From Acidisoma sp. L85 (GTDB lineage: Bacteria > Pseudomonadota > Alphaproteobacteria > Acetobacterales > Acetobacteraceae), in contig NZ_LMUQ01000015.1 in NCBI RefSeq assembly GCF_009765865.1, positions 18,955 to 66,510 on the forward strand: a DNA stretch of 47,556 nucleotides, written 5' to 3'. This document shows positions 10,557-39,693 of the stretch, one piece after another; the stretch's first letter is position 1, and each line of letters begins with the position of its first letter. A program made the position numbers and the translations under genes. The notes under the pieces are model-generated. The model ran no database searches, was not told the DNA's origin, and saw nothing but the letters and a program-made list of their open reading frames with translations.

Positions 10557-10575
10557 GGGAGTTCCTCGTGTTGGA

Positions 10576-14227: not shown

Positions 14228-14344
14228 GGTGTTGCCTTCCTATTGAAAGAGAATGGTTCGCGTATCGGGGGAGATTGCCTCATGGGCGGCCATTCGTGAT
14301 TCGCTAACTGATCATGCGGTTGCCGCTGGTTCGGCCGACGGACC

Positions 14345-23975: not shown

Positions 23976-25097
23976 TTATCGCCTCACAATGCCTCCGACG
24001 GGCTCTTCGACCGGTAGTTCGACGGTCGCCAGCTGTTCGATACGACGGATGGCCACCACAAGGTCTGCCTGCTCCAGCCGCCGTCCAATGTTGGCAAGGT
24101 GAGGCGCCGTCATTGTCAATCGCGCGATCTCGTCGATTTCACTTCCCGTTGCCTCGGTCATCCCCAACTCCGCTAGGCACGTCGGCAAACCGATCCCCCG
24201 CAAAAACGTGGCAACGTCGAGGATGAACGCGGACTCCCGATTCTCCACGGCCAATTGAACAAGAGTGCCATAGGCCACCTGATTGCCATGGATCGCGGCC
24301 TTGACACCCCGCGCAACGACGAGACCTCGCGTCAGCGAATGAGCGATCGACAGTCCACCGTTCTCGAACCCGAGGCCACTCATCAGAATGATGGCCTCGA
24401 CGGTCGCTTCAACATCATCGTTCAAGATTCCGGCCGAAACGGCATCGAGGGCAGCGGGCGCATGGGCTCGCAGTGTGGCATAGCAGGCGTCTGCGATGAC
24501 ACCGGCTGTCAGGAGTGGCCGTGTCCCGAATGGCGTCTTGCCAGTCCCGACCGAACAGCCGTTGGCCTCGAACTTCTTGGCGATCGCATCGCCGATGCCG
24601 GCGCGCAGGAAATGAACGGGCGCACTCGCGATCAGCCTCGTATCCACGACGACGAGGTCGGGGCTGCGAGGCATGCGGTCGACCGCGATCATCACGTGTT
24701 GATCGTCATACATGGCAATCGACGCGCTGGTGGGCGAATCATTCGACGCGATCGTCGGAACTGTCACCAGCGGCTTGCCCAAACGCACAGCCAGGCCCTT
24801 GGCCGAATCGAGCGCTTTGCCGCCGCCGACTCCTACGAGCACCGAGATAGGTGTGTCTCCGGCATCTCGGGTCAGCTCATCGATAGCCGCGTAGGTGATC
24901 TCGCCACCAAAAGGCAACAAGATCGGGTCGAGCCCCGCGCTGCGCGCCGTCTTTTCCAGCCGCGCTCCAAGGCGCTCCATCAAAAACTGATCAACGACCA
25001 GAAGAGGCCGCGGGCCATATGGCGCTAATAGAGGCCCAAGCTCATCCAGGGCGCCAGGTCCTTGAACGTAGCGATGAGGAGAACCGAAAATGCGCAT
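23976..25097 (-). CDS. Iron-containing (GldA-like) polyol dehydrogenase
   Basis: A 373-residue group III metal-dependent dehydrogenase of the glycerol dehydrogenase type. The NAD-binding motif is VGVGGGKALDSAKG (about 88-101) and the TIASNDSPTSA loop follows. Metal ligands are Asp in GIGDAIAKKFE (about 167), His in SIAHSLTRG (about 250) and His in AIHGNQVAYG (about 267). Family enzymes interconvert polyols or diols and ketones with NAD. It is the last gene of the twelve-gene catabolic run, 80 bases after the SDR gene. It may oxidise the imported polyol or handle a dihydroxyacetone- or glycolaldehyde-like product. Confidence 0.9.
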   Translation of the reverse strand: MRIFGSPHRYVQGPGALDELGPLLAPYGPRPLLVVDQFLMERLGARLEKTARSAGLDPILLPFGGEITYAAIDELTRDAGDTPISVLVGVGGGKALDSAKGLAVRLGKPLVTVPTIASNDSPTSASIAMYDDQHVMIAVDRMPRSPDLVVVDTRLIASAPVHFLRAGIGDAIAKKFEANGCSVGTGKTPFGTRPLLTAGVIADACYATLRAHAPAALDAVSAGILNDDVEATVEAIILMSGLGFENGGLSIAHSLTRGLVVARGVKAAIHGNQVAYGTLVQLAVENRESAFILDVATFLRGIGLPTCLAELGMTEATGSEIDEIARLTMTAPHLANIGRRLEQADLVVAIRRIEQLATVELPVEEPVGGIVRR

Positions 25098-25177
25098 GAG
25101 ACGAGCTTTCGATGGAAGGACTTAGCAGAGCAGCTTTACGTGCCGGCCTGGACGACCTTGTCCCGTTCGCTCAATAT

Positions 25178-25975
25178 TTAAACTGACGGAAGGTGTTCGA
25201 GCGGATAGGCATCGCTTGGTGCTCCCCAGGCACAGTAGCCGCCATCGACGGGTAGCGTGACGGCCGTGATGAACTCGGCACGGTTGGACGCCAGGAACAG
25301 CAAGGCCTGGGCGATATGTTCCGCCTTGCCAAGCCTGCCCATTGGGGTTCGGCGCCGGATACGGTCGCCGTCGACCTTGCCGTCTTCGATCAGTTTGGCC
25401 AGCAAGGGCGTCAACATATAGCCCGGCGCCACGGCATTAACCCGGATACCATACGGCGCCCATTCGCAGCCCAGCACCTGCGTCAACATGCCGATTCCCG
25501 CCTTGGCGGCGCTATAAGCCGTCCGCACCGGCAAGCCGAGAATGCCCGCAATCGAGTTGAGGTTGAGAACCACGCCCATTCCGCGTTCAATCATGTGCGG
25601 TGCGACTGTATTGGATACGAGATACGTTCCGGTGAGGTGGATGTCGATCAGCCGCTGCCAGTGTGCGAGTGTTTGATCGACGGTCGGCACAAAACTGTCC
25701 GGCACCCCGGCATTATTGACCAGGATATCGATGCGACCATAGCGAGCGATCACATCGGCGACCATGGCCGTGACCGCCGCTTCATCCGAGACGTCGCCCG
25801 CGACCGCGTGATGCGCGGGTCCGAGCGGCTTCGCCGCGGCATCGGCGGCCTCCGCGCGCACGTCGTTGATCACGATCTTCTCGCCCTCGCGTGCGAAGAC
25901 GCGCGCCGTCTCCAAACCGAGTCCGCTGCCCGCCCCGGTGATGAGGGCGAGCCTGCCTTCCAGCTCACCCATCAT
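25178..25975 (-). CDS. Short-chain dehydrogenase/reductase (classical SDR)
   Basis: A 265-residue NAD(P)-dependent oxidoreductase. The cofactor motif is TGAGSGLG (about 13-20), with NNAG near 89. The catalytic Ser is in NLNSIAG, and YSAAKAG holds the Tyr/Lys pair. The C-terminus VDGGYCAWGAPSDAYP is typical of sugar/polyol SDRs. The start overlaps the stop of the transketolase C-terminal gene (ATGA), so they are translationally coupled. It probably oxidises a sugar or polyol hydroxyl before phosphorylation; a specific substrate cannot be assigned. Confidence 0.92.
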   Translation of the reverse strand: MMGELEGRLALITGAGSGLGLETARVFAREGEKIVINDVRAEAADAAAKPLGPAHHAVAGDVSDEAAVTAMVADVIARYGRIDILVNNAGVPDSFVPTVDQTLAHWQRLIDIHLTGTYLVSNTVAPHMIERGMGVVLNLNSIAGILGLPVRTAYSAAKAGIGMLTQVLGCEWAPYGIRVNAVAPGYMLTPLLAKLIEDGKVDGDRIRRRTPMGRLGKAEHIAQALLFLASNRAEFITAVTLPVDGGYCAWGAPSDAYPLEHLPSV

Positions 25976-26961
25976 TTGTTCTCCAGTATCGCCCGCACAA
26001 ATCTCGGCAGGTCGACCTCGTATTTCGCCTCGAGATATTCCTGCGACCCGCATTCGAAGAAACTGTCCGCGAGCCCTATCTTGACTAAAGGCTTGATGAG
26101 TCCTGCATCGTAAAGCGCCTCCACGACGAGACTCGCAAGTCCTCCTGTTGTTTTGTGATTCTCGGCCACGATCAGCCGGTCGAAACGGGACGCGAAGGCG
26201 AGCACGCCGTCACGATCGAATGGCTTGATCGTGCCGACATGCAGCACCGCGGCGTCGATACCTTGCCCGGCGGCGATATCAGCGGCATCGCGGGCACGCA
26301 TCGACATATAACCGCAGGAGATGATGCCGACCGCGCTACCCTCGCGCAGCACCTTCGCCTTGCCGAGTTCGAAGCGATAGTCGTTTCCCAGCTCCACTGG
26401 CACCTTGCCGCGCAGGCTGCGAACATAGACGGTGCCGGGAATATCGGCCACGGCGCGCACGACCTGCTTGAGTTCCGTCGCGTCGCAGGGGTCGATGATG
26501 GTCAGGTCCGCGATCCCCCGCATCATGTTGAGATCTTCGGTTGCCTGATGGGTCGCGCCGTAGCCGTTCACGAGCCCCGGCATCCCGGCGAAGATTTTCA
26601 CATTCGCCTTGGAATGCGCGCAGGATATCGCGACGAAATCGTAGGCCCGACGCGTGATAAAGACCGAATAGGTGGTACAATAGGCGATCTTGCCGACCTT
26701 CGAGAGGCCGGCCGCGATCATGAGAAGATCCTGCTCGGCCATTCCTACGTTGAAGAATCGGTCGGGAAAGGCTTCTCGGAACGGCAGGATGTCGCTGTAG
26801 CGCCCCATATCAGCCGTGAGACCGACGATCTCCGGCCTTTCCGCCGCAAGGGCCGCCAAAGTCGTGCCGAATGGCGCGAGTTCCGTGGTTTTGCCTATAA
26901 CATCGATCAATTCACCCATGCCGCGCGTGCGGCCAGCGGTGGTCGCAGCAGTGTCAACCAT
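25972..26961 (-). CDS. Transketolase-like protein, C-terminal subunit (split transketolase)
   Basis: A 329-residue subunit with the pyrimidine-binding and C-terminal domains of transketolase. Motifs include AERPEIVGLTADMG, DRFFNVGMAEQDLLMIAAGL (with the conserved catalytic Glu of the family), GYGATHQATEDLNMM and the C-terminal HKTTGGLASLVVEAL. It pairs with the N-terminal subunit encoded just upstream (overlap of eight bases). Split transketolases occur in specialised sugar pathways such as D-apulose-4-phosphate or sulfofructose catabolism. ATG 26961 has GGAG upstream; an internal Met (MGELIDVIG) is a possible later start. Confidence 0.92.
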   Translation of the reverse strand: MVDTAATTAGRTRGMGELIDVIGKTTELAPFGTTLAALAAERPEIVGLTADMGRYSDILPFREAFPDRFFNVGMAEQDLLMIAAGLSKVGKIAYCTTYSVFITRRAYDFVAISCAHSKANVKIFAGMPGLVNGYGATHQATEDLNMMRGIADLTIIDPCDATELKQVVRAVADIPGTVYVRSLRGKVPVELGNDYRFELGKAKVLREGSAVGIISCGYMSMRARDAADIAAGQGIDAAVLHVGTIKPFDRDGVLAFASRFDRLIVAENHKTTGGLASLVVEALYDAGLIKPLVKIGLADSFFECGSQEYLEAKYEVDLPRFVRAILENK

Positions 26962-27796
26962 GATGCGTCTCCAACTCGGCCTTCAGCGCGTCCCACTCGT
27001 CATTGGCGACGCGGACGAAATGTGCTCGCTCCCGACGCTCCAGGGTCGGGACACCTTTGCCCGGTGTGGTGCGCAACACGATGGCTTTCGGTTTTCCGTT
27101 GGGTTGCCGCGCATTCGCGAGAGCCGTCACGATCGCCTGCATGTCATTTCCGTCGATCTCCACTGCCTCCCAACCGAAGGCGACGAATTTGTCGGCGACG
27201 GGATCGATTTTCACGGTGACTGGGCCATCCGCCTGGATGCCGTTGCAGTCAATGATGGCAACGAGGCTGTCGAGCTTGAAAGTCGCGGCGCCCATCGCGG
27301 CCTCCCAGGTCGAACCTTCCTGAAGTTCGCCATCGGACAATTCGTTGAATACACGAGCCGGTGATCCGTCGAGACGCAAGCCGATCGCCATGCCGACCGA
27401 CTGACCGAGCCCGTGACCGAGGGAACCTCCGACCATCTCGACACCTGGTGTATCATCAAACGTGCTCATTGGGAGATGTGAGCCATTGAGCCCGTAGCTA
27501 GCGAGTTCGCGGACCGACAGGTAGCCGGCCTCGGCCAGAACCGCGTACATGGCGATCGCATAGTGACCGGTCGAGAGGATGAAACGATCGCGATCTTGCC
27601 ACTTCGGTGTGGCGGGATCGTAACGCAGCTCATGAAAATAGAGCGCGGCCAGGCAATCGGCAATGCCGAGACCCTGAGCAATATATCCTTCACCTTTGCC
27701 GCTCGCCATGTCCAGCATCAGACGCCGAAGGTTCAGTGCGCGAGATTTCAGCGCGTCGATATCGGGATGTTCGGGAGGATGATTGCGCGACGTCAT
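26954..27796 (-). CDS. Transketolase-like protein, N-terminal TPP-binding subunit
   Basis: A 280-residue thiamine-diphosphate-binding half of a split transketolase. It has FILSTGHYAIAMYAVLAEAG, VEMVGGSLGHGLGQSVGMA and the TPP/Mg motif SDGELQEGSTWEAAMGAA...CNGIQADG. The first Gly of the usual GDG is Ser, a small deviation. The C-terminal TTPGKGV segment is also family-typical. ATG 27796 is chosen; the frame is open much further upstream, but that part overlaps the lactonase gene and has no family sequence. It functions with the adjacent C-terminal subunit and transfers a two-carbon ketol unit between sugar phosphates. Confidence 0.92.
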   Translation of the reverse strand: MTSRNHPPEHPDIDALKSRALNLRRLMLDMASGKGEGYIAQGLGIADCLAALYFHELRYDPATPKWQDRDRFILSTGHYAIAMYAVLAEAGYLSVRELASYGLNGSHLPMSTFDDTPGVEMVGGSLGHGLGQSVGMAIGLRLDGSPARVFNELSDGELQEGSTWEAAMGAATFKLDSLVAIIDCNGIQADGPVTVKIDPVADKFVAFGWEAVEIDGNDMQAIVTALANARQPNGKPKAIVLRTTPGKGVPTLERRERAHFVRVANDEWDALKAELETHHG

Positions 27797-27828
27797 GGTG
27801 TGGATGAAATCCTTGAAGTGCGGCGGCC

Positions 27829-28746
27829 CTAGGATTGGTGGTGCAGGCGCAGTCCCGGACGGTCCCAGGGCATCGAAACAAGGCGTCCGCTCGAGGAGAG
27901 CGTTATATAAGCGGTGCGCAGGTCCTGACCCCCGAAGCAGACATTGGTGGTGTAAGGATCCGGCATCTCGATGCGCTGAACCAGAGCACCTGCGGGCGAC
28001 ACGACATCGAGACCGCCGATCCGTAGTGACGCGATGACGATGTTGCCGCTCGCTTCGACGGCGAGAGAATCGTAGCGATGAAAGCCCGGCAGGCCGCACA
28101 CCAGATCGCCGCCGGTCGGTGAAGGCCAAGTTGCGCGGCCAAGTTCGCCGGGCCCGAGCACGGGATAGGACCAGAGGCGGCCGGATGAAGTCTCGGCGAC
28201 ATAGAGCGTGGCGCCGTCCGGCGAAAGGCCGATGCCGTTCGGCCCGATCAGCGGGAAGGCCGCTTCGAGAATCTGGCTTCCATTGGCGCGCGCGTAATAG
28301 ACGCTACCGAACTCGACTTGCCGCCCCGTGCGATGGCCATGATCAGTGAACCAGAACCCGCCAGCGCGATCGAAGACGATGTCGTTGGGTGCCGAAAGCG
28401 CCCGATCGTCGCAGCGGTCGTAAAGAACCTCGACCGCCCCAGTGTTTAGATCCACGCGCTCGATGCGGCCGCCGCTATTATCTGACGCTTTCGCAATCGG
28501 ACGCCACAGCCTGTCCTCCCGTTGCCAAGAAAAGCCCCCGTTGTTGCAGACATAGAGGTAACCGTCCGGCCCGAGCGCCGCGCCGTTGGGACCGCCGCCG
28601 GGTCTCGCCATTGCGCGAGTGCCATTGCGGTCGATATGGCTGATCTGGCCACGGCCGATTTCGACCACAAGCAGGCTCCCATCCGGCAGAACGACGGGGC
28701 CTTCGGGAAAGTGCAGCCCCTCGGCCCGCACGGTGAAGGCCGTCAT
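27829..28746 (-). CDS. SMP-30/gluconolactonase-family protein
   Basis: A 305-residue beta-propeller hydrolase. The metal ligands of the family are visible: Glu in FPEGPV (about 15), Asn in LSAPNDIVFD (about 121) and Asp in HRYDSLAVEA (about 225). Repeated propeller strands (DGSLLVVEIGRGQISHID, then DGYLYVCNNGG) fill the rest. Such enzymes hydrolyse sugar lactones to aldonic acids. The start overlaps the HAD gene stop (ATGA). Its presence implies that one branch of the pathway oxidises an aldose to a lactone, or that it acts on a related ester. Confidence 0.9.
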   Translation of the reverse strand: MTAFTVRAEGLHFPEGPVVLPDGSLLVVEIGRGQISHIDRNGTRAMARPGGGPNGAALGPDGYLYVCNNGGFSWQREDRLWRPIAKASDNSGGRIERVDLNTGAVEVLYDRCDDRALSAPNDIVFDRAGGFWFTDHGHRTGRQVEFGSVYYARANGSQILEAAFPLIGPNGIGLSPDGATLYVAETSSGRLWSYPVLGPGELGRATWPSPTGGDLVCGLPGFHRYDSLAVEASGNIVIASLRIGGLDVVSPAGALVQRIEMPDPYTTNVCFGGQDLRTAYITLSSSGRLVSMPWDRPGLRLHHQS

Positions 28747-29417
28747 GACGTTACCATGCGCAGATCCACGCCAAGGATGCGGGCGAGTTCGGGAATGTCA
28801 TGCGCGACCTGATCCGCCCCCAGCGAGGACATTTCGGCGGCGCTGTAAAATCCGTAGGTGACCGCGATGGAGCTTATACCCGCTGCCTGAGCCGCGACGA
28901 CATCATGTGGACCATCGCCGACATAGACGGCATCCGTAGCGGCCGAGCCGGCTCTCTTCAGGCCAAGCAGGATTGGCGCCGGATGCGGTTTACGCTCAAT
29001 GGTATCCTCGGCCGTCACTACCGCGACGAAGGAGGCCACATCGATCTTCGCGCGTTCAAGATCGATCAGGGTTCGCGCCAGGCCTTTGTTGGTGACGAGG
29101 CTCGGCTTGCGCCCGGCGGCCGTGATGGCGAGGATCAGCTCCCGCGCGCCGCCGAACAGGATCATGCCGGCGGAAGCTGCGGGATATTGTCGCTGATAGG
29201 CATCGAGACAAAGCTCGACCTGGTCTGGCGCCACTACGCCGAAGACCTCAACGGGCCGCATCGCGTAGAGTAGGTGGGCGTCGATACTCGGCGGCGGGAA
29301 TGCCTGCTTCAGGACAGTGCCGAAGACGTGGCGATAGCAGTTTTCCACAGCCTTGCGCGTATCGACGAGAGTGCCGTCGAGATCGAACATGACGTGCTCG
29401 GCAAGGATCGGCGGCAT
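28743..29417 (-). CDS. HAD-superfamily phosphatase (phosphoglycolate phosphatase-like)
   Basis: A 224-residue cytoplasmic phosphatase. The four HAD motifs are present: MFDLDGTLVDT (motif I), SLVTNKG (II), ERKPHPAP (III Lys) and VYVGDGPHDVVAA (IV). The cap insertion resembles the phosphoglycolate/phosphonatase-type branch. It follows two FGGY kinases and overlaps neighbours by one and four bases. A kinase-plus-phosphatase pair suggests removal of a by-product phosphate (for example a 2- or 3-carbon phosphate) or a regulated step. The true substrate is unknown. Confidence 0.9.
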   Translation of the reverse strand: MPPILAEHVMFDLDGTLVDTRKAVENCYRHVFGTVLKQAFPPPSIDAHLLYAMRPVEVFGVVAPDQVELCLDAYQRQYPAASAGMILFGGARELILAITAAGRKPSLVTNKGLARTLIDLERAKIDVASFVAVVTAEDTIERKPHPAPILLGLKRAGSAATDAVYVGDGPHDVVAAQAAGISSIAVTYGFYSAAEMSSLGADQVAHDIPELARILGVDLRMVTS

Positions 29418-30967
29418 CAGCTTGCATTCCTAGATGCGCCACGCTCTAGGCAGGCAGCGCGCGCCGCCCATGCCGGTGCGAGAGCTTCACGAATATCTCT
29501 GAAAAGCGCAAAGGCCGCCGCGTATCGCTCCGCCATGGCCGGATCGGGTTGCACCTTCGCCATGACGCGCACCATGCGAGCCGCGCCCTCCTCAAGCGAG
29601 GAAAACAAGCCCGCCGCGTGACCTGCCAGAAGCGCGACGCCGAGCGCGCCGGTTTCCTCGGCTTCCGTCACGACCAGCTCGCGGTTCATCGCGGCGGCAC
29701 AAATGTCGCGCCACAACAGGATGCGGGCGCCGCCGCCGGTGATGCGAATTTCGTCGACCGGTGCATCGATCGCGCCGTAGCAATCGACCATCGACAGCGC
29801 GACGCCTTCCATGATGCTGCGCACCAGCGCAATCGGCGTGGTGTCGAGCCCCAAGCCCATGATGCTGCCTCTGGCGGCCGGCTCATGGCGTGGCGCGGTC
29901 ATGCCGGAGGTATTCAAATAGGGATGGAACAGCAGCCCGCCCGGCAGTGGCGGCAGGGCACGCGCCTCGGTCTCGATGCGCGTGAACATATCGGCGCCAT
30001 CCGACAGGGCCGCTTCCTTGCGTCCGAAAGCCTCGATCACCCAGTCGAGGCACACTGAGCCGCCGCCGGTATTGGACATGAGGCGTTGCCAGCGTCCGTC
30101 GGGCATCAGGAACAAAAAGCCAACGCCGCGCGGTTCCATAACGGGACGGTCCACCGTCAGATTATTCATGAAGCTGGTGCCGATGACGGTAACGGCCTGA
30201 CCCGGCAAAAGCGCCCCCGCGCCGATCGCGGCCGCAACCCCGTCGCCTGCGCCAGACGCAACGAGCGTTCCTTCGTTGAGCCCAGTCTCGACCGCCGCCT
30301 TGGCGGTGACGCGACCGACCGGCGCGCCGATGGGCAGCACTTTCGGGATCAAGCCCGATTTGCCTGACAGGCCGCAAAGGTCGAAGACGGATTCGGAGAC
30401 GCATCGCTTCCGAATGTCACAGGGGAAGAAGGACAGATCGGACTCATCCGTCGCGATTTCCCCTGTCAGGCGATAATTTACAAAGTCTTTGGCGCAGAAA
30501 ACATGCGCGATGCCGGGAAACAGATCCGGCCGATGCCGCTGCATCCAGGCAAGCAGCACGATGGGCATGCCGGGAATGAGGGCGTTGCCCGAAATGTCGT
30601 AGACCTTTTCGACGATGCCGCTGTCGCGCCAATGCTGGAGCAATTCGCTCGCGCGCCCATCGGGCCAGGCAATCGCTCGCTCGAAAGCAACGCCGTCGTG
30701 GTCGAGCGCCCATAGCCCACCCATATGACCGCTGACGCCGATGGCGGCGATATCGGCGGCGGGGAGCCCTGCCTCGGCCAGCGCCCCGCGGATCGCCAGG
30801 GCAACGCCGCACCAGGTCGCTTCCGTGTCTTCCTCGTGCCAATCGGGATGCGGGCGGAAAGACTGTGTCGCGCGGCGCGCGAGGCCGAGGACTCGCCCGC
30901 TTTCAGCATCGAACACCACGGCCTTCGTGGTTGTCGTGCCCTTATCGATGCCGAGCAACGCTCTCAC
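29417..30967 (-). CDS. FGGY-family carbohydrate kinase (copy 1)
   Basis: A 516-residue sugar or polyol kinase of the xylulokinase-like FGGY family. N-terminal ATPase-fold motifs are LLGIDKGTTTTKAVVFD and IGVSGHMGGLWALD. The catalytic Asp lies in ASGAGDGVAAAIGAG (about 243). The C-terminal FGGY_C domain has ITGGGARILLWRDICAAAMN and TGALGVALLAGHA. The GTG start at 30967 overlaps the stop of the next kinase gene (GTGA). It shares layout and many residues with that neighbour (DKGT..KAVVFD, RP.PDWHEED, SGHMGG / AGHMGG), so the two are tandem paralogues. The product is a ketose or polyol phosphate for the split transketolase. Confidence 0.93.
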   Translation of the reverse strand: MRALLGIDKGTTTTKAVVFDAESGRVLGLARRATQSFRPHPDWHEEDTEATWCGVALAIRGALAEAGLPAADIAAIGVSGHMGGLWALDHDGVAFERAIAWPDGRASELLQHWRDSGIVEKVYDISGNALIPGMPIVLLAWMQRHRPDLFPGIAHVFCAKDFVNYRLTGEIATDESDLSFFPCDIRKRCVSESVFDLCGLSGKSGLIPKVLPIGAPVGRVTAKAAVETGLNEGTLVASGAGDGVAAAIGAGALLPGQAVTVIGTSFMNNLTVDRPVMEPRGVGFLFLMPDGRWQRLMSNTGGGSVCLDWVIEAFGRKEAALSDGADMFTRIETEARALPPLPGGLLFHPYLNTSGMTAPRHEPAARGSIMGLGLDTTPIALVRSIMEGVALSMVDCYGAIDAPVDEIRITGGGARILLWRDICAAAMNRELVVTEAEETGALGVALLAGHAAGLFSSLEEGAARMVRVMAKVQPDPAMAERYAAAFALFRDIREALAPAWAARAACLERGASRNAS

Positions 30968-32502
30968 GCCGCAATCCGACTGGAAGCGGGGGGCACCAGA
31001 GCTTCCCGCCGCCGCGAGAAACCCAGATAGATGCGGCGCAGATCTTGATACAGGCGGAACCAGCCGTCATAGAGCGCGGCCGTCTCGGCATGCGGCTCAT
31101 ACCGAGTAACCTCGGGGGCCATGTGGGCAGTGGCATCCGCGATGCTTGACCAGACACCAGTCGCGACACCGGCGAGCAACGCAACGCCCAATGCGCCGGA
31201 TTCACCCACGCCTCGGACCTCGATCGGCACACCGCAGACGTCGGCGAACATCTGCGCCCAATAGGCGCTTTGCGCCCCTCCGCCGGTGAGCGTGACGGAA
31301 GACGGGGGAACCGCCATCGCGGCGAAGCAGTCCCGGGTCGCGAAGCACAGCGATTCATAGACCGCTCGCAGCATATGCGGCTCGGTGGTATGCGTGCTCA
31401 GGCCGAAGAAGGACCCACGCGCCAGAGTATCGAAGACCGGCGCCAGAACGCCGCTGGTATTGACGTAGGGCAGCAGGATGACGCCACCGGCGCCAGGCGG
31501 AACGGAAGCCGCGAGACGTTCCATCTTGGCATAGTCGTGGGTGCCATCCGCGCATGTTGGTCCACCGAAGCGATCGAGATACCAGTCGAGCACGATGGTG
31601 CCGGATGTGTTGGGCAGGATCCGGAGATAGAGATCATCCGGCATCGCGAACAGGAAACCGACGCCCTCGGGTTCACGGCTGGCATGATCGAGAACGAGCC
31701 CGTTGAGGCAGCTGGTGCCCAGCACCGTCATGGCCGCTCCGGGAGCCACGGCGCCGACACCGATGGCATTGGCGCAGGCGTCTCCCAGCCCATGAATGAC
31801 CGGGGTGCCGGCGCAAAGCCCGCTCTGCCGCGCCGCGAGTTCCGTCACCGCGCCGGCGATGTCCGAGGACGGGAAGACAGGCGGTATTGCGCCCAGCCAC
31901 GCGCCTGCGCCGCAGAGCTCCAAGATACGGTGAGAAAATCCACGGCCGTCGATGTCGCCTGGAACGAAGCTCACATCCGATGGCTCCGTCGCCACCGCGC
32001 CTGTCAGTCGAAAGCGCAAATAGTCCTTGGCACATAGAACATGCGCCGCTTGTTCATGAAGATGCGGTTCATGCGCGGTAAGCCAGCCGAGCAGCAGCGC
32101 CGTAACACCCGGCATCAATCCATTGCCGCCGATGGCGAAGATTTCCGTAAGCGCCTGAGCGTCGCGTAAGGCGAGCAGCTGCGCCTGGGCGCGGCCATCA
32201 GGCCAGCAGATGGCATTGCGAACGGGAGTGCCATTGGCGCCGGTGATCCAGGCGCCGCCCATATGGCCGGCGATCCCGATGGCGGTGATCGCGTCCCCGC
32301 CGATCCCCGCGTGATCGAGCGCAGCCCGAATGACGCGGCAACAGGCGGCCCAACTCTCCTCCGGATCTTCCTCGTGCCAGTCCGGCCGAGGGCGCAACAC
32401 GGTCACGCGCTCCTGCGCCACGCCGCGTGCCGCTCCGCTCGCGTCGAAGACCACCGCTTTGATAACGGAGGTGCCTTTGTCGATGCCGAGCAGGTAGATC
32501 AC
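30964..32502 (-). CDS. FGGY-family carbohydrate kinase (copy 2)
   Basis: A 512-residue kinase paralogous to the one at 29417-30967. Motifs are LLGIDKGTSVIKAVVFD, RPRPDWHEEDPEESW, IGIAGHMGGAW and catalytic Asp in IHGLGDACANAIG. The C-terminal domain has TLTGGGAQSAYWAQMFADVC and SGALGVALLAGV. The GTG start overlaps the stop of the ABC ATPase gene (GTGA). Two kinases in one operon suggest that two sugars, two epimers or two successive intermediates are phosphorylated. Confidence 0.93.
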   Translation of the reverse strand: MIYLLGIDKGTSVIKAVVFDASGAARGVAQERVTVLRPRPDWHEEDPEESWAACCRVIRAALDHAGIGGDAITAIGIAGHMGGAWITGANGTPVRNAICWPDGRAQAQLLALRDAQALTEIFAIGGNGLMPGVTALLLGWLTAHEPHLHEQAAHVLCAKDYLRFRLTGAVATEPSDVSFVPGDIDGRGFSHRILELCGAGAWLGAIPPVFPSSDIAGAVTELAARQSGLCAGTPVIHGLGDACANAIGVGAVAPGAAMTVLGTSCLNGLVLDHASREPEGVGFLFAMPDDLYLRILPNTSGTIVLDWYLDRFGGPTCADGTHDYAKMERLAASVPPGAGGVILLPYVNTSGVLAPVFDTLARGSFFGLSTHTTEPHMLRAVYESLCFATRDCFAAMAVPPSSVTLTGGGAQSAYWAQMFADVCGVPIEVRGVGESGALGVALLAGVATGVWSSIADATAHMAPEVTRYEPHAETAALYDGWFRLYQDLRRIYLGFSRRREALVPPASSRIAA

Positions 32503-33662
32503 GCAACCTCTGAGCGAATGGCTGCAAGCTCGTCGCCCGCCGTGCGGCTGGCGAAGCGCCGGGTCTGCTGCGTTTTGTCGTCGAAAAGGAACAGTGCATC
32601 GTCGGGAATGAAGACGCGCACCGGCTCGTCTATCTCGAAGGCGCGTGGATCGGGTGTGAGGGTTTGAATGCTTTGATCAGCGATCTGAACGGTCACCAGC
32701 TGCGCGTCACCGAGTTGCTCGGTCACATAGACTTGGCCTGTCGCGGTGAAACCCTCGACCGCGGGCGCGGTGTCAGCGGCACGCAGAACCATCACGCCGC
32801 TCGGTCGCGCGCCGATCGAGGCAGTGCGGCGGCCGATGTTGAGGAAGCGCTCCAATGTACGCGGCAGGCGCGCGGGCTGGCCCCCAACCCGGCCGGCGAT
32901 GTGATCGCCTTGATCAACGCAGGAATCAACCGTGAAAACGTTCATCGAATGTAGCCCGAAGAATTGGGCGACGAAGGCATTGACGGGGCGATTGTGAATC
33001 TCGTCGGCACTGCCGACCTGCTGAAGACGCCCGTCTCGCATCACCGCGAGCCGATCCGTCATCGTCATGGCTTCGATCGGGTCATGGGTGACGATGACCG
33101 AGGTGGTTCCGAGGGCACGCTGAAGCCGCTTGAGCTCTCCACGGAGACGGGCACGCAGAAGCGTGTCGAGATGCGCGATCGGCTCGTCGAGGCAAAGCAG
33201 GTTGGGATCCCGAACCAGAGCACGGGCGATGGCGACACGCTGCTGCTGGCCGCCCGACATCTGCGAGGCTCGCCGATCGAGCAGCGCGCCGATATTCAGC
33301 AAGGTCGCGACCTCGGCAACCTTGCGGGCAATCGTCTCGCTGGATGCGCGCCGGACACGCAGCGGATAGCTGATGTTTTGGCGTGCGGTCATATGCGGAT
33401 AGAGCGCGTTCTGCTCGAACACCATCGCGACGTTGCGTTCCTGCGGGGTCTTGTTGTGGACAGGAACGCCGTCGAAAAGGATCGATCCCTCCGTCGGCCG
33501 CTCCAGCCCCACGAGCATACGCAACACCGATGTTTTGCCGGAGCCCGAGGGACCGAGGAGACCGAAGAACTCTCCGTCTTCGATGTGGATATTCACATCC
33601 TGCACCGCATGAACGGAAGGACCGAACCACTTGTTGAGATGATCAAGGGTAACGGATGCCAT
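32499..33662 (-). CDS. ABC sugar transporter ATP-binding protein (MalK/UgpC type)
   Basis: A 387-residue ATPase that powers the sugar importer. Walker A is GPSGSGKTS (about 37-45), the signature is [15 protein letters not shown], Walker B is LLCLDEP with D-loop IAHLD, and the switch His is in [13 protein letters not shown]-terminal TOBE/regulatory region (about 240-380; [11 protein letters not shown]) is typical of MalK-like proteins. It ends in a four-base overlap with the second kinase gene and lies 32 bases after the MalG-type permease gene. Confidence 0.94.
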
Positions 33663-33694
33663 GGTCTTCGTCCTGATCTGACCGGGCCGTGACT

Positions 33695-34564
33695 TCAGCG
33701 GCCGCCGAGTTCGGCTGTGAAGCTGCGGATGAGATACCGCTGCATGAGGTAGGAGAGGACGAGAAGAGGCCCCATGGCGACAATGCCGATAGCGCCGAGC
33801 TGGCCCCAGTTCGGCTCCTGAAACAGGAAGAAGTCGGCCAATGCCTTTGGCAGCGTTATGACGTTGTCGCCCGTCAAAACGAGTGAGAACAGAAACTCAT
33901 TCCAGGCGAACATCATGCTGAGTATCGCCGCGGTCATGATACCCGGGGCGGAGAGCGGCAGCAGAATGTCGCGGAACATCCAGAACCACGGCGCGCCGTC
34001 GATTCGCGCCGCATCCTCGTATGAGCGCGGAATCTGGCGAATGAATTCCGCCAGAAGCCAAATCACGAGCGGCAGGTTCATGAAGGTATAGGCGATGATC
34101 AAGCCGATATAGGTGTCGTAGAGATGCAGCTTCTGGAACATGAGGTAAAAGCCGATCACCGGTACGATCGGCGGCAGCATGCGAAGTGAGAGGATGGTGA
34201 AGCTGAGCTGGCCGTGGGCCGAGAAGCGCCGCGCCAACGCGTAGGCCGCAGGAAAACCCAGTATGAGGCAGAGCACCGTCGACGAGGTCGCCACAATCAG
34301 GCTGTCGCGAATGCCACGGCCGCCGCCAACCGACCAGCCGCCGGCGAAATTGACGAGGGTCGGATGAATTGGGAACAGCGTCGGCGGGCTGGAGAATAGC
34401 TCGCCATAGGGTTTGAACGCTGTGATGAGCAGCCAGACGATCGGCGCGAGGCACAGGATGACGAGCACGATGAGGATCGCGTGACGAACTGCGCTGCCAA
34501 CAAGCTCCTCCGTTCTCAGCTTGGCTCTGGGGGGAAGGCGTGGCGCCCGCGTGGCCGCGCTCAT
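33695..34564 (-). CDS. ABC sugar transporter permease (MalG type)
   Basis: A 289-residue inner-membrane permease with six predicted helices. The cytoplasmic EAA loop reads YEDAARIDGAPWFWMFRDI, which contacts the ATPase. The N-terminal LAPIVWLLITAFKP and the C-terminal MMFAWNEFLFSLVLT are typical of the carbohydrate uptake 1 family. The ATG at 34564 overlaps the stop of the partner permease (TGATG); a GTG one codon earlier is an alternative. Confidence 0.93.
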   Translation of the reverse strand: MSAATRAPRLPPRAKLRTEELVGSAVRHAILIVLVILCLAPIVWLLITAFKPYGELFSSPPTLFPIHPTLVNFAGGWSVGGGRGIRDSLIVATSSTVLCLILGFPAAYALARRFSAHGQLSFTILSLRMLPPIVPVIGFYLMFQKLHLYDTYIGLIIAYTFMNLPLVIWLLAEFIRQIPRSYEDAARIDGAPWFWMFRDILLPLSAPGIMTAAILSMMFAWNEFLFSLVLTGDNVITLPKALADFFLFQEPNWGQLGAIGIVAMGPLLVLSYLMQRYLIRSFTAELGGR

Positions 34565-35541
34565 CACGCGCCCTCCTTCGCGTTTGCGGCAGGGCCGGCG
34601 ACCGCGGCCGTCGGCACATTGCGTTTGGCGACGAGCTTGATGATGAGCATCGTGCCTATAGTCAGCAGCAAAAGCTGGATGATGCTGAGCGCGCCGGAGC
34701 GGCCGAACTGAAAGCGGCCAAAGCCGAGATCATAAGTGTAATAAGCGAGGTTCTGCGTGATGGTTCCAGGCCCCCCCCTCGTCAGGATATAGATGATGTC
34801 GAAGACTTTGAAACTGTCGATGAAGCGCAGGACGAAGGCGACTGCAAAATACGGCAGCAGCATCGGCGCGACAATATTGAAGAAGGTCTGCACGGCGCTG
34901 GAGCCATCGACTTTCGCGGCCTCGTAGACCCGGGGTGGGATCGACCTTAGACCTGCGAGCAGAATGACCATGACGAGCGGCGTCCATTGCCAGATATCGA
35001 CCGCGACCAGAGTAGGTAGCGCCCAAACCGGCGACTGGGCCCAGGCCGGGGGAGACAATCCGATACCTTTGAGTAAGGCATTGAGGGGGCCGTAGATCGG
35101 ATTGAGAAAAAGCTCCCAGGCGAAGCCTACCACAATGGGAGCCAACATCATCGGTGTCAGCAGCAGCGACGCATAGACCTCGCGCCCACGCGTAACCGCG
35201 TTCAACAGCAAGGCGATGCAGAGGCCGATGAGCAATTGGAGCGGCACGCTCACCAGCGCGAAGGCGGCCGTCACACCAAGGCTGTGCCAAAAGCGCGTGG
35301 TTTTGACGAGAACTTGGAAGTTACCGAGGCCGACCCAATGGATCGGCACCGGAATCGCCATTTGATAGGAAGTGAAAGACGCATAGATCAGATAGCAGAA
35401 AGGCCAGATGGCGAAGACGGCGAGGAATAGCAACGCTGGCCCCAGTAGCAGCAGGGTTCCGCGTTCAGTGACGCCGTCGTCACGCCGGGGTTTCCTCCCC
35501 CACCGCGACGACTTACCATAGCCTATCGTCAGATCGGCCAT
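34564..35541 (-). CDS. ABC sugar transporter permease (MalF type)
   Basis: A 325-residue permease, partner of the gene at 33695-34564. Its features are LLLLGPALLFLAVFAIWPFCYLIYASF at the N-terminus, the EAA-type loop YEAAKVDGSSAVQTFFNIVAPML, and a C-terminal TRGGPGTITQNLAYYTYDLGF typical of MalF-like sugar permeases. ATG 35541 is chosen, 17 bases after the binding-protein stop. A TTG at 35568 would overlap that gene and adds nine residues of no family character. Confidence 0.92.
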   Translation of the reverse strand: MADLTIGYGKSSRWGRKPRRDDGVTERGTLLLLGPALLFLAVFAIWPFCYLIYASFTSYQMAIPVPIHWVGLGNFQVLVKTTRFWHSLGVTAAFALVSVPLQLLIGLCIALLLNAVTRGREVYASLLLTPMMLAPIVVGFAWELFLNPIYGPLNALLKGIGLSPPAWAQSPVWALPTLVAVDIWQWTPLVMVILLAGLRSIPPRVYEAAKVDGSSAVQTFFNIVAPMLLPYFAVAFVLRFIDSFKVFDIIYILTRGGPGTITQNLAYYTYDLGFGRFQFGRSGALSIIQLLLLTIGTMLIIKLVAKRNVPTAAVAGPAANAKEGA

Positions 35542-35558
35542 CGGATCGGCGGTCGCCC

Positions 35559-37058
35559 TCAGGTCCAATAACCGTTCTTCACCATGCGCGCGCGGTATTC
35601 GGCATAGTGAGCAATTTGAAGATCGCGGCCGTAGGTTTCAGTAGTTTCGTCGAATTCGCCCGAGATGTCCTGTAGCGCTTGCATGGGCGCGACCTGGCCA
35701 TTGATCGCGGCCTGCACATGCTGAATGATCGAGCTCATGTACTGGTTGGTGCCCGGAATGGAGATATCCAGATAGACCTTCGGGTTGTGCAATGCGGCGA
35801 GACTGGTCTGCGCGAAGTTATCAGCGAAGCCCGAGGCCGATTCCAACGGGAAGGTGGCCTTAGGACTCTCGAACATGCTGACGCGCCACGGATCCATCAA
35901 GGACTGCGCGAAAGTTTCGGCGACCCATCGGGTGGCATTGGCCGATTGCTGGATCCAGGAAATTGCTGTGAAGGCGCCCTTCTTGTTCTGCGAATTGGCC
36001 GCGATGCCCATAGCGCGGCCATAGGGAAGCATGGTGACCTCGCCCCAGCTTCGGGCGCATCGGATTTTGTCGGCCACTTTCGAGATCGCGGGATCGGAGG
36101 CGCCTTTCGCCATGTCGGTCCACCAATTCGCCTGAGCGATATGGCCCGCGAAATAAAGTTGCCGGCCGACATCCCAGGGCATCGCCTTGGCAAGATCCTT
36201 AGGCATAAAGGCGGTCATTTCGATATAGCGGAGGATTGCCTCTTCGCCCATAGCATTGGCGATATTGGGCTTCATATTGGCGTCGAAGATCTCGCCGTAG
36301 TTGACGCCCTTTTCGGCGCCGATCTGGACGAAGTGATTCATAAAGAACGCATAAACGAAGAAGCTCGTGACCTCGACGGCGCCATAGAGGTTCTTCAACG
36401 GCCGGGTAAAGAACTCGGCAATATCGCGATACTGCCTATAGGTCTTGGCCGGGATCAGGTCATAACCGTATTTCGCCTTGAACGCGGTTTTCTCAGCCGC
36501 GTCGTCGAACAAATCACTGCGATAGGTGTCGATGAAGAGATCACCGTCGATCGTGATTCCGACGAGCTTATTCTGGTAGTAGTTCAGTTGCTGAAAGGGT
36601 TTCGCGACATCGGAGAAATCTAATGTCTCCAAAGAGCCAACTTCCTCAAGCGGGGTGAGATAGGGGCCGAAGTCTCCCGCGAAATTTTGCCAGAAATCGA
36701 ACGCGTCGAAGCGGGCCGTTTTTTGCCGCAGCGATAGAAGATTTTGGTCGTACATATTGCCGAGGGGATAGGATTCGAACTCGACCGTCAGCCCCGTTGC
36801 CGCTTTGAACTCCGGCGCGAAGGTTTTGAGAATGGGCGTGAAAGCGCCACTGTCGAGACCCACTTTGACAGTCCCGCCTGCGGCGGACTGCGCTGAGGCG
36901 GTCTTCAACAATCCGGTGAAGGTTCCGAGGGTCGCGACCGCGCCGAATATCGCCGAACGGCGCATCAACTCGCGTCGCGCAATCAGTCCGTGCGTATCGA
37001 TTTCGTTGAGCTGCTCTGACGCGTGTTCTTCGGTGGATTGCCGCTTCGAAAAGCTCAT
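35559..37058 (-). CDS. ABC transporter sugar-binding protein with Tat signal
   Basis: A 499-residue periplasmic binding protein of the extracellular solute-binding family 1. The N-terminus carries a twin-arginine signal (ARRELMRRSAIFGAVATLG, about 27-45) ending near TASAQSAAGG, so it is exported folded by the Tat system. The mature part begins VKVGLDSGAFTPILKTF. At about 450 mature residues it is longer than the usual 390-420 for this family. It is the first gene of the catabolic operon and therefore defines its substrate. The ligand cannot be inferred from sequence by eye. Confidence 0.92.
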   Translation of the reverse strand: MSFSKRQSTEEHASEQLNEIDTHGLIARRELMRRSAIFGAVATLGTFTGLLKTASAQSAAGGTVKVGLDSGAFTPILKTFAPEFKAATGLTVEFESYPLGNMYDQNLLSLRQKTARFDAFDFWQNFAGDFGPYLTPLEEVGSLETLDFSDVAKPFQQLNYYQNKLVGITIDGDLFIDTYRSDLFDDAAEKTAFKAKYGYDLIPAKTYRQYRDIAEFFTRPLKNLYGAVEVTSFFVYAFFMNHFVQIGAEKGVNYGEIFDANMKPNIANAMGEEAILRYIEMTAFMPKDLAKAMPWDVGRQLYFAGHIAQANWWTDMAKGASDPAISKVADKIRCARSWGEVTMLPYGRAMGIAANSQNKKGAFTAISWIQQSANATRWVAETFAQSLMDPWRVSMFESPKATFPLESASGFADNFAQTSLAALHNPKVYLDISIPGTNQYMSSIIQHVQAAINGQVAPMQALQDISGEFDETTETYGRDLQIAHYAEYRARMVKNGYWT

Positions 37059-37162: not shown

Positions 37163-37203
37163 TACAATACCACCTGGGATGAGAGCACAACAAGAATATT
37201 GTA
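37163..37203. promoter_or_regulatory. Inverted repeat in divergent promoter (candidate MocR operator)
   Basis: TACAATA (37163-37169) and its exact complement TATTGTA (37197-37203) flank 27 bases between the ABC operon and the MocR gene. The second arm ends four bases before the ATG of the regulator, so binding there could repress the regulator itself. Seven-base arms occur by chance fairly often, so this is a candidate only. Confidence 0.35.
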
Positions 37204-37207
37204 CTAG

Positions 37208-38596
37208 ATGGCGCTGTTTGAAATGCTACAATCGGAACGACGACCGGGCTACCGCCAAATCGTCGATGTGATCGCAACAGCGATCGAGAATGGCGGAATC
37301 AAGCTCGGGGAGCAGTTGCCGACCCAGCGCGAACTCGCGCATCGGATGAAGGTGGCCGTGGCGACGGTTGGACGCGCCTATGCCGAGCTGGACGCGCGTG
37401 GACTAATTACGAGCCACGTCGGCCGCGGAACCTTCGTTTCGGGATCTTCATTGGCGGACGACCGCTACCTGCCACTTCAGCCCAATACTGAACTCGGACC
37501 CATCGACATGGCGGTATATCGCGTGCCCGTGCCGCCCTTCGGAGATGAGGTGATGCGAGGCGTGCTGACCGACCTCGCCGCGCGTGAACCCGCGCTCGTT
37601 CTGGCCGGATCGCCCACCGCGGGGTCTGAGCGCCATCGCGCTGTGCTGGCGAAATGGCTCAAGCGGCAGGGCGTTCACGTGTCGCCGGATCAACTGACGA
37701 TCACCAATGGCGGCCAGCACGCGACGATGGCGGCCCTGTCCACATTGACCCACCATGGGGATCTGATCGCGACAGAAGAGTTGACGGACCCGCGTATGAA
37801 GGCGGTCGCCAGCTACCTCGACCGGCGCCTTCTCGGAATTTCCTGCGACGGGCAAGGGATGATTCCGAGCGCGCTGGAGAAAGGCTGCCGCGAGCATCGG
37901 GTGGCAGCACTCTACTGCGCGCCGCGGCTCCAGAATCCTTTCAATGTCACATTGCCCGCTGACCGCAGGGCGGCGCTGGTCGAGATCGCGCGTCGCTTCG
38001 ACATGCCGATAATCGAGAATGATATCTATGGCACGATCCTAAACGACCCGGTGCCACCGATCTTCGCCCTCGCGCCGGAACGTACCTACTACCTTACAAG
38101 TCTCGGACGACTCGCGGGTCCAGGGCTGAAGGTCGGGTGTCTGGTCTCGCCGCTCGACCAAGGATCGCGCGCCCAGGCGGGCGTGGGGATGTCCACCGGC
38201 ACCGCAACGTCGATATGCGTCGAAGTCGCGGCAACGCTGATCGAAGGCGGACATCTGGATCGCATGGCGGAGTGGCAGGCCCAGGAGAACCTGCGTCGGA
38301 CTGACTTAATGGCGACCTTTCGGCACCTCTCGGCCGCGCGTATCCATCCCGCGAGCCCGCATGCCTGGATATCGCTCCCCAGCCCCTGGCGCGCCGAAGA
38401 TTTCGTGGACGCCGCTGCTCAACGCGGTGTCGCCATAGCACCCACCCATGGTTTCGTGGCCGATCGTCGTTCCATTCCTCATGCTGTGCGTCTTTGTGTC
38501 GGCGCGCCGGCGACTTTGAATCTGGTCGACGCCGCATTCCGTCAATTGGAGCGCTTGCTCTCAAGCGCGCCGCGATCGAGCGTGGAAGCGGCCTGA
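37208..38596 (+). CDS. MocR-type GntR regulator with aminotransferase-like domain lacking the PLP lysine
   Basis: A 462-residue regulator. The GntR winged helix (1-78) contains GEQLPTQRELAHRMKVAVATVGRAY and ends GRGTFVSGS. A fold-type I aminotransferase-like domain follows (about 110-455). PLP-pocket residues appear as LQNPFNVT (Asn243) and ENDIYG (Asp272, Tyr274). The Schiff-base lysine of the usual SFSKTLAPGLR motif is replaced: the sequence is TSLGRLAGPGLKVG, with Arg301 (codon CGA at 38108-38110). It diverges from the catabolic operon and overlaps the next gene. No Shine-Dalgarno precedes ATG 37208. It probably controls the operon but may sense its ligand without covalent PLP. Confidence 0.9.
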   Translation: MALFEMLQSERRPGYRQIVDVIATAIENGGIKLGEQLPTQRELAHRMKVAVATVGRAYAELDARGLITSHVGRGTFVSGSSLADDRYLPLQPNTELGPIDMAVYRVPVPPFGDEVMRGVLTDLAAREPALVLAGSPTAGSERHRAVLAKWLKRQGVHVSPDQLTITNGGQHATMAALSTLTHHGDLIATEELTDPRMKAVASYLDRRLLGISCDGQGMIPSALEKGCREHRVAALYCAPRLQNPFNVTLPADRRAALVEIARRFDMPIIENDIYGTILNDPVPPIFALAPERTYYLTSLGRLAGPGLKVGCLVSPLDQGSRAQAGVGMSTGTATSICVEVAATLIEGGHLDRMAEWQAQENLRRTDLMATFRHLSAARIHPASPHAWISLPSPWRAEDFVDAAAQRGVAIAPTHGFVADRRSIPHAVRLCVGAPATLNLVDAAFRQLERLLSSAPRSSVEAA

Positions 38597-39693
38597 TGAC
38601 GACGCACTTGGATCACTCCAAAGGTTCTGCCCTGATCCTGGGAGCGGGCGGCGTTGTGGGACGGGCGGCTTTGCAGATGTTTGAGGAGCTGCCCAATTGG
38701 CGTGTAACTGGAGTCTCGCGCCGAGGCCCGACCTTCGACACCAGGGCTGATTGGCTCAGGCTCGACCTGACCGATCCTGAGGATTGTAGTAAGCAACTTA
38801 GTGCGGTTGCACAGGATGTTACTCACGTGGTGTACGCCGCTCTCTACGAGGAGCGTGATCTGGTAAGTGGGTGGACGGAGCGACGGCAGATCGATGTTAA
38901 TCTAGCCATGCTGAAGAATGCCCTTGTTCCCCTTCTGGCCGCGCGGTCTGTCCGGCATGTGACGCTTCTTCAAGGGACAAAGGCTTACGGCGTGCATCAT
39001 GGCCCATACAAGATGCCGGCAAAGGAGGGCGACCCGCGCTTCATTGCATCGAACTTCTATTACGAGCAGGAAGATTTCCTGCGAGCAGCGATGAGCGATA
39101 GCCGTGGCTACACGGTGCTTCGGCCGCAAATCGTTTGCGGCTTCGCGGTCGGCAACCCCATGAACGCAATCACGGCGATCGGCACCTATGCGGCTATCTG
39201 CCAGGAACTAGGCCAACCCTTTCGGTTCCCAGGGGGTGCGGCGTGCTTCCAAGAGGCAGTCGATGCACGGTTGTTGGCGAGAGCGATCCTGTGGGCCGGA
39301 CAAACATCCAGCTGTCGAGGCGAGATCTTCAACATCGCCAATGGCGACTGCTTTTCGTGGCCGACAATCTGGCCAACCCTGGCGGCGCGTTTCGGGTTGT
39401 CAGTGGGACATCCGCACCCGTTTTCCTTGGCCGCCGTCATGGCCGACAAAGCGCCGGTATGGGACCGTATTGTTAAGAAGCACGCGCTGATGCCTCTGGC
39501 CTACGGTGAGATTGTTCACTCGTGGGATTTCATGGACTATCTTTTCCGGCACGGGAGCTCTGTGCCACGTCACTCCCTTGTTTCCACGATCAAGGCGCGG
39601 CAACACGGATTTCACGATTGCGCCGACACCGAAGCGATGTTCGACGAGATCCTCAGGCAATTGCAGGATGCACGGGTTCTGCCCGGCAACTGA
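38596..39693 (+). CDS. PRISE-like extended SDR (progesterone 5-beta-reductase/iridoid synthase-like)
   Basis: A 365-residue NAD(P)-dependent SDR of the extended or atypical type. The cofactor motif is ALILGAGGVVGRAAL (about 12-26), followed by WRVTGVSRRGP. The blocks LLQGTKAYGVHHGPYKMP (Lys129) and ASNFYYEQEDFL (Tyr155/156) match the GTK...NFYY.QED signature of PRISE proteins, which reduce activated C=C bonds. The ATG overlaps the MocR stop (TGATG), so the two form one coupled unit. ATG 38596 is chosen; the longer frame overlaps the regulator. How a PRISE-type reductase fits a sugar pathway is unclear; it may be a sugar-nucleotide-type epimerase relative instead. Confidence 0.82.
   Translation: MTTHLDHSKGSALILGAGGVVGRAALQMFEELPNWRVTGVSRRGPTFDTRADWLRLDLTDPEDCSKQLSAVAQDVTHVVYAALYEERDLVSGWTERRQIDVNLAMLKNALVPLLAARSVRHVTLLQGTKAYGVHHGPYKMPAKEGDPRFIASNFYYEQEDFLRAAMSDSRGYTVLRPQIVCGFAVGNPMNAITAIGTYAAICQELGQPFRFPGGAACFQEAVDARLLARAILWAGQTSSCRGEIFNIANGDCFSWPTIWPTLAARFGLSVGHPHPFSLAAVMADKAPVWDRIVKKHALMPLAYGEIVHSWDFMDYLFRHGSSVPRHSLVSTIKARQHGFHDCADTEAMFDEILRQLQDARVLPGN

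Follow-up and report, generated by a model that had tools for sequence, protein, structure and literature searches.

A rare, syntenic operon of Acidisoma built around a split transketolase with fixed active-site changes

What does a bacterium degrade when it couples a split transketolase to two sugar kinases, a lactonase and a dedicated importer, and what would that transketolase act on? The question is raised by a twelve-gene operon of Acidisoma sp. L85, an alphaproteobacterium of the Acetobacteraceae. It lies in a stretch of 47,556 nucleotides (assembly GCF_009765865.1, contig NZ_LMUQ01000015.1, positions 18,955 to 66,510 of the forward strand), which is the window of this analysis and from whose first letter all positions are counted. 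The operon is rare, patchy in its distribution and syntenic, and its transketolase, judged by residues and tree, belongs to a distinct subfamily with fixed active-site changes. Our preferred reading, held tentatively, is that the locus serves the uptake and catabolism of a lactone-forming polyol (or lactone) or of an unusual sugar acid, in which the transketolase would cut two carbons from a non-phosphorylated keto-acid and a linked acyl-CoA module would finish the remainder.

The two halves of the enzyme, recognised by family search, are encoded by adjoining genes, with the corresponding Escherichia coli TktA positions as follows.

25972..26961, minus strand: transketolase C half (TKC); Tyr55, Tyr134 and Arg184 stand at TktA 385, 469 and 520
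26954..27796, minus strand: transketolase N half (TKN); Tyr38, His78, Ser111 and His259 stand at TktA 26, 66, 100 and 261

The canonical TktA set of His26, His66, His100 and His261 is thus not matched by TKN, which has Tyr, His, Ser and His. Among 70 N-half rows, drawn from the loci giving the best matches with near-identical rows removed and E. coli TktA present twice, Y-H-S-H is found in all 44 at 48–100% identity to the window; two rows at 43% read Y-H-N-H, two at 31% read Y-H-I-H, and 21, along with the reference TktA, read H-H-H-H, AptA of the D-apiose pathway being one of the rows with His26 and His100. The C-half rows exclude two fragments of a single gene that is split by frame. Glu411, Tyr469, His473 and Arg520 occur in all 43 whole rows at 45% identity or more, 42 of which have Tyr at the 385 place and one, from Cnuibacter, Phe. 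The 12 lower rows have Ser385 in eight cases and Tyr385 in none. Ser385 was located through an ungapped alignment to human transketolase, the loop differing in length from that of TktA, and the position of Asp469 was anchored by the GxTH motif. The His461 place in the subfamily is Gly/Ala or Met/Leu/Asn, depending on a one-residue shift.

Identity to the window's halves (N/C) is 73–92/79–93% within the operon clade, 64–67/56–59% for dehydratase-linked loci of Rhizobiaceae, 62/66% for Cnuibacter, 59–61/53–56% for Variovorax and the second copies of Microvirga and Metarhizobium, 48–56/44–51% for a TRAP-, Rbs- and MFS-linked group and 38/35% for AptA/AptB of E. coli SE15; identity to full-length transketolases is about 31–36%. 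A tree of 46 concatenated rows was computed with the five motif columns removed (quick IQ-TREE run, SH-aLRT support only, midpoint root), four full-length enzymes being dropped because their C halves did not match. The 34 subfamily rows form one branch (98), within which the operon rows form another (99) with Cnuibacter as their sister (100), and eight His-type split rows, AptAB included, make up a separate branch (99); AptAB and locus L003 are long branches. Motif and low identity lead us to reject a housekeeping transketolase, and tree, motif and identity together to reject membership of the D-apiose (Apt) system. The subfamily, at 48% identity or more, is present in 22 of 199 sampled Rhizobiaceae genomes, with a 44% relative in two more. 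Among the papers listed by searches of the open-access literature, which leaves most subscription journals outside, there was no characterised member and no description of the operon or of the residue set. The earlier suggestion of an undescribed variant is reasonable.

Some indication of what these residues may do comes from engineered E. coli transketolases. H26Y and D469Y reverse stereoselectivity, the propionaldehyde product being 58% S with the wild type, 88% R with H26Y and 68% R with D469Y (PMC3657141). The side chain of S385Y would clash with the substrate phosphate, hindering phosphosugars, and stacks aromatic aldehydes (PMC5073344), and H100 is a donor-site residue that is Phe in DXPS (PMC7661550). 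The TktA triple mutant R358I/H461S/R520Q is better on 5-ketogluconate, and mutant TktA cuts this compound to tartaric semialdehyde, which makes a keto sugar acid a transketolase donor (PMC12016104). By analogy with these effects, the donor of the natural enzyme is probably one whose far end lacks a phosphate and perhaps carries a carboxylate near the kept Arg520, and the other C3 configuration may be preferred. With Tyr in place of the phosphate-contacting Ser385, it is doubtful that phosphorylation precedes the transketolase step, as the original prediction had it.

The same residues bear on an apiose-like pathway, the first interpretation of the locus, in which a kinase would come first and a branched ketose, once phosphorylated, would yield triose phosphate and xylulose 5-phosphate through the transketolase. 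A split transketolase together with an FGGY kinase, a short-chain dehydrogenase/reductase (SDR) and an ATP-binding cassette (ABC) importer is indeed what the E. coli apiose cluster contains. However, AptA/AptB are distant, sit on the other branch and keep His26/His100, Ser385 is replaced in the window, and the importers are of different types. The Apt system is recognised by the D-apiose isomerase ApsI or, in Escherichia, by two oxidoreductases; family searches found no isomerase among the 14 locus genes, but ApsI is lacking from the E. coli cluster as well. The same genome has a separate apt-like locus, which also speaks against this interpretation, and altogether we consider it very improbable. 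That locus (L119, contig 36, 1–10063) encodes an SDR, a sugar-binding-type regulator, a second SDR, an Rbs-type ATPase and permease, an FGGY kinase, TKC and TKN, and its transketolase groups in the tree on the side of AptAB, among long branches.

The remaining genes of the operon are also on the minus strand. Twelve open reading frames, all located where the original prediction had them, occupy 23976–37058, and adjacent genes overlap by 1–8 bases or are separated by gaps of at most 80 bases, measured with the SDR start at ATG 25975 (corrected from 25981) and that of the MalF-like permease at ATG 35541. Families were assigned from Pfam and NCBIfam searches of the window proteins.

23976..25097, minus strand: GldA-type iron alcohol dehydrogenase, 373 aa; NCBIfam glycerol dehydrogenase subfamily NF006941
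25178..25975, minus strand: SDR dehydrogenase; Pfam adh_short_C2
27829..28746, minus strand: SMP-30 type lactonase; Pfam SGL, 155 bits
28743..29417, minus strand: HAD phosphatase, phosphoglycolate-phosphatase-like; Pfam HAD_2, 93 bits
29417..30967, minus strand: FGGY kinase 1; XylB model, 288 bits
30964..32502, minus strand: FGGY kinase 2; XylB model, 310 bits
32499..33662, minus strand: ABC importer ATPase, MalK/UgpC-like; best NCBIfam model UgpC, 334 bits (cut-off 432)
33695..34567, minus strand: ABC permease, MalG-like by sequence; pLA6 orthologue annotated SugB-like, 77% identical
34564..35541, minus strand: ABC permease, MalF-like by sequence, internal ATG start; pLA6 orthologue annotated SugA-like, 69% identical
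35559..37058, minus strand: solute-binding protein, probable Tat signal (by eye); ten orthologues, Pfam SBP_bac_1 sub-threshold

Of the parts originally listed, the enzymes (the GldA-type and SDR dehydrogenases, both transketolase halves, SMP-30, HAD and the two FGGY kinases) and the ATPase are backed by these searches. The permeases owe their names to sequence and to the annotation of their orthologues on plasmid pLA6 rather than to a family search, the Tat signal was recognised by eye, and the binding protein scores 22.4 bits with SBP_bac_1, under the Pfam cut-off of 26; its ten orthologues are 67–92% identical and its AlphaFold model has a mean pLDDT of 36. The GldA-type protein passes the NF006941 cut-off (353 bits against 336) and fails that of glycolaldehyde reductase NF053832 (292 against 550), the HAD protein reaches 89 bits with NCBIfam PGP (cut-off 180), and both kinases, 42–43% identical to each other, fall below the XylB equivalog TIGR01312 cut-off of 380. 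Kinase relatives (37–43% identity) at three other loci gave no clue to the substrate, and the literature search on PDB 7ris and 8djf, the nearest solved structures to the lactonase (E about 1e-93), returned nothing relevant.

Divergent from the operon is a pair of plus-strand genes which the original prediction had missed and which we add to the locus, preceded by a candidate operator.

37188..37201, minus strand: putative operator CAAT-N6-(A/G)TTG, just ahead of the regulator start; present in 7 of 8 aligned divergent intergenic regions
37208..38596, plus strand: MocR-like regulator; EhuR model NF052286, 426 bits, below the cut-off of 480
38596..39693, plus strand: PRISE-type reductase; Pfam PRISE PF22917, 60 bits, above the cut-off of 27

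The regulator gene was found in 12 of 13 operon loci, the contig of the remaining one being cut. Arg occupies the usual place of the pyridoxal phosphate (PLP) lysine in 10 of 10 orthologues, located by the canonical PLP-binding motif of MocR proteins, and the regulator may therefore not use PLP. The reductase, which resembles progesterone 5-beta-reductase and iridoid synthase (E 2e-42 and weaker), is encoded in 10 of the 13 loci; it is absent from Pseudohoeflea and pLA6, and the Cypionkella contig is cut.

These thirteen loci comprise the window, ten found by scanning genome contigs with kinase 1, Acidisoma G003 and plasmid pLA6; G002 has the same coordinates as the Acidisoma cellulosilyticum locus L009 and was counted once. 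At E 1e-105 kinase 1 matched one of 385 genomes of the class, the window's own, and five of 346 Rhizobiaceae genomes, four of which have the operon; the fifth (G495) has one kinase only, at 37% identity. Kinase 1 reached 84% identity or more in three of 60 relatives, the window's own genome counted among them, and all three belong to the five genomes of the window's genus. The order of binding protein, permeases, ATPase, kinases, HAD, SMP-30, TKN and TKC is kept in the 12 other loci as far as the contigs reach, and therefore the clustering is not due to chance, in agreement with the earlier view of a dedicated catabolic operon. About 4 kb separate SMP-30 and TKN in Pseudohoeflea, and some loci had no labelled reading frame for HAD or SMP-30. 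In Rhizobium G21 (L018) kinase 1 (10001–11547) and TKC (13980–14965) are each frame-split and the gene of an APH kinase is also in two pieces; this operon may be decaying, or the breaks may be assembly errors.

The end of the operon beyond TKC is more variable. An SDR adjoining TKC (orthologue of about 74% identity or more) is found in six of the 12 loci reaching that place, the window included, and GldA at 60% identity or more in 10 of 12, the two Microvirga loci having only a more distant GldA in a neighbouring cassette. That cassette (L010 and L011, 15440–21530) adjoins the operon and consists of a second TKN-TKC-GldA-cupin set with a Liv-type transporter and acyl-CoA genes. Between TKC or SDR and GldA, six of 12 loci, none of them Acidisoma or pLA6, carry a cupin gene. 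The enzyme 2,4'-dihydroxyacetophenone dioxygenase cleaves an alpha-hydroxyketone. One cupin examined is related to it (PDB 4p9g, E 1e-28; Pfam Cupin_7, 61 bits), which fits a ketol intermediate.

Considering whether the operon acts by itself, genes for a second SDR (SDR2), an acyl-CoA dehydrogenase (ACAD), a CoA ligase and an APH kinase, all or some of them, adjoin it in eight of the 13 loci, on either side: Metarhizobium, Pseudohoeflea, Rhizobium G21, pLA6, Cypionkella, where they directly follow GldA, Acidisoma G003, where CoA-transferase subunits take the place of the ligase and the opposite side has a thiolase, and the metagenome-assembled genomes of a Rhizobium (L016) and a Rhizobiaceae bacterium (L015), the latter with APH only, at the contig end. 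Both Microvirga genomes have a 56–57% identical APH on the operon contig, about 24 kb away, and three further loci outside Microvirga have no adjacent module. Such a pattern could also arise from two neighbouring pathways with separate functions, namely one operon for a pentulose or polyol, in which the kinases act first and the transketolase supplies the pentose phosphate pathway, and another, unrelated operon for a hydroxy-acid. The two XylB-like kinases would suit this arrangement, as would the separate regulators, MocR-like for the operon and a TetR-type gene beside the acyl-CoA genes in three loci. In the window's genome, too, contig 83 carries SDR2 (56%), APH (79%), an ACAD and a CoA-transferase subunit, grouped together and unlinked to the operon, and APH homologues (E 1e-110) occur in 28 of 199 Rhizobiaceae genomes, just two of which have the operon. 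The frequent adjacency argues the other way, as does APH itself, which 11 of the 12 operon genomes have at E 1e-60 and ten have at E 1e-110; since the operon genomes and the background sample differ in taxa, more weight falls on the adjacency. Sister transketolases likewise lie beside acyl-CoA genes, and we regard two separate pathways as possible but rather unlikely.

The neighbourhoods of these sisters are of two kinds. On the acyl-CoA side, the nearest transketolase beyond the operon clade and three others are located with acyl-CoA genes or beside the operon. Variovorax and Microvirga have TKN-TKC-GldA-SDR beside Liv-type transporters, an acyl-CoA ligase, acyl-CoA dehydrogenases and an enoyl-CoA hydratase, and in Cnuibacter the neighbours are thiolase, OB-fold and FMO-like genes. 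On the sugar side, four Rhizobiaceae loci combine TKN-TKC with an MR_MLE enzyme and Rbs-type genes (SDR directly adjacent in three, SMP-30 in two); two of the four MR_MLE enzymes were tested, and their closest models, gluconate/galactonate dehydratases, gave 259 and 320 bits, below the cut-off of 750. SDR-TKN-TKC stands with TRAP transporter genes at six loci (L093, L095, L096, L097, L149 and L150, in part by eye), several of these small clusters are plasmid-borne, and their transketolase is of the same Tyr/Ser subfamily; they are probably a simpler sugar-acid pathway. A second Tyr/Ser copy in the window's genome adjoins an Rbs-type system. A distant member in a Rhizobiaceae genome (L151, G579; Tyr26/Asn100, 43–44%) has GldA, a class III CoA-transferase and an enoyl-CoA hydratase-like gene as neighbours.

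A further alternative is that the enzyme cuts the side chain off a bulky ketol, whether terpenoid, steroid or aromatic, in the manner of DesAB, while the sugar-type genes deal with a sugar attached to it. The stacking of aromatic aldehydes by Tyr385 in the engineered enzyme and the PRISE reductase are in keeping with such a substrate, as are several genes found near relatives: paired acyl-CoA dehydrogenases, a thiolase accompanied by an OB-fold protein, and an FMO-like enzyme. The importer, kinases and lactonase are all sugar-type, however, the sister groups include plain sugar-acid contexts and the operon has no glycosidase, and the likeness to the steroid desmolase DesAB is one of description rather than sequence comparison; this alternative appears improbable.

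Returning to the lactone-forming polyol or sugar acid, we infer its class and the reactions from the genes, their conserved linkage, the transketolase subfamily with its fixed residues and the frequent acyl-CoA linkage. The ABC importer would take up a polyhydroxylated, lactone-forming compound, which the SDR, GldA-type and PRISE-type enzymes with the SMP-30 lactonase would convert to an acid bearing a terminal HOCH2-CO-CH(OH)-R ketol. From this non-phosphorylated donor the split transketolase would move the two-carbon ketol unit onto an aldehyde, the XylB-like kinases would phosphorylate the ketose(s) made or taken up for entry into the pentose phosphate pathway, and the HAD enzyme would clear stray phosphate. 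The leftover aldehyde or acid would become a CoA ester, completed by the linked SDR/acyl-CoA dehydrogenase/APH module. We favour this route because of the Tyr/Ser active site, the cleavage of a keto sugar acid by mutant TktA, the sugar-acid and acyl-CoA neighbourhoods, the adjacency of the acyl-CoA module and the cupin.

Several points weigh against it. An acid-type substrate leaves two kinases and the HAD enzyme unexplained, the SDR is missing from half of the loci, and the APH kinase was not found in operon genome G424. The engineered mutants belong to another enzyme, and by alignment Arg520, changed in two of those variants, is kept here. Loss of Arg358 and His461, considered as a mark of the subfamily, was dropped: AptAB and some other His-type relatives lack His461 as well, and no position for Arg358 could be assigned in any of the split relatives. 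Nor, on the aligned rows, is Tyr469 such a mark, since two of the 12 lower C-half rows have it.

The wider proposal that the Tyr26/Ser100/Tyr385/Tyr469 subfamily cuts two carbons from non-phosphorylated keto sugar-acids of opposite C3 configuration to the donors of ordinary transketolase, and that in the operon acyl-CoA degradation is coupled to sugar-type uptake and kinases, giving deoxy sugar acids or polyol lactones a route of breakdown, is doubtful as a whole. It would predict a breakdown route in soil and plant bacteria that is undescribed in the literature searched. Candidate substrates considered were 2-C-methyltetrols, isosaccharinic acids, arylglycerols, ranunculin-type lactones, ascarosides and hopanoid tails, none with direct evidence; a search on isosaccharinic acid and transketolase gave no useful literature.

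Among known systems, the D-apiose pathway (AptA/AptB, aplK) shares the split transketolase, FGGY kinase, SDRs and ABC importer with the window, which adds the lactonase, HAD enzyme, second kinase, GldA and PRISE enzyme and has an importer that looks MalFGK-like where that of the E. coli cluster is ribose-type. The sulfofructose transketolase SqwGH is also split and also takes a donor without phosphate at the far end. Its phosphate-site and substrate-orienting motif is RAFDR (PMC11659671); compared by this published motif rather than by sequence, the window differs, with Tyr at the Ser/Ala place (TktA 385), and no sulfosugar isomerase was recognised. The split transketolase DesAB, a steroid-17,20-desmolase, has a hydroxysteroid dehydrogenase beside it and is proposed to take off a two-carbon ketol side chain; the window has a sugar-type transporter and kinases. 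The linked SDR, acyl-CoA dehydrogenase, CoA ligase and APH kinase resemble a levulinate-type (Lva) hydroxyacyl-CoA module, likened by gene set rather than sequence, here tied to a sugar-type operon and with a CoA-transferase for the ligase in Acidisoma G003 and the window's genome. The closest parallels to the active site are the engineered E. coli enzymes (H26Y, D469Y, S385Y/D469T/R520Q and R358I/H461S/R520Q), with which the window shares Tyr26, Tyr385 and Tyr469; the window's enzyme is natural and split, has His100 changed to Ser as well and keeps Arg520. Residues reached separately by engineers are thus fixed together, along with Ser100, in a natural subfamily, which offers a direct test of what these changes are for and possibly a set of ready-made catalysts.

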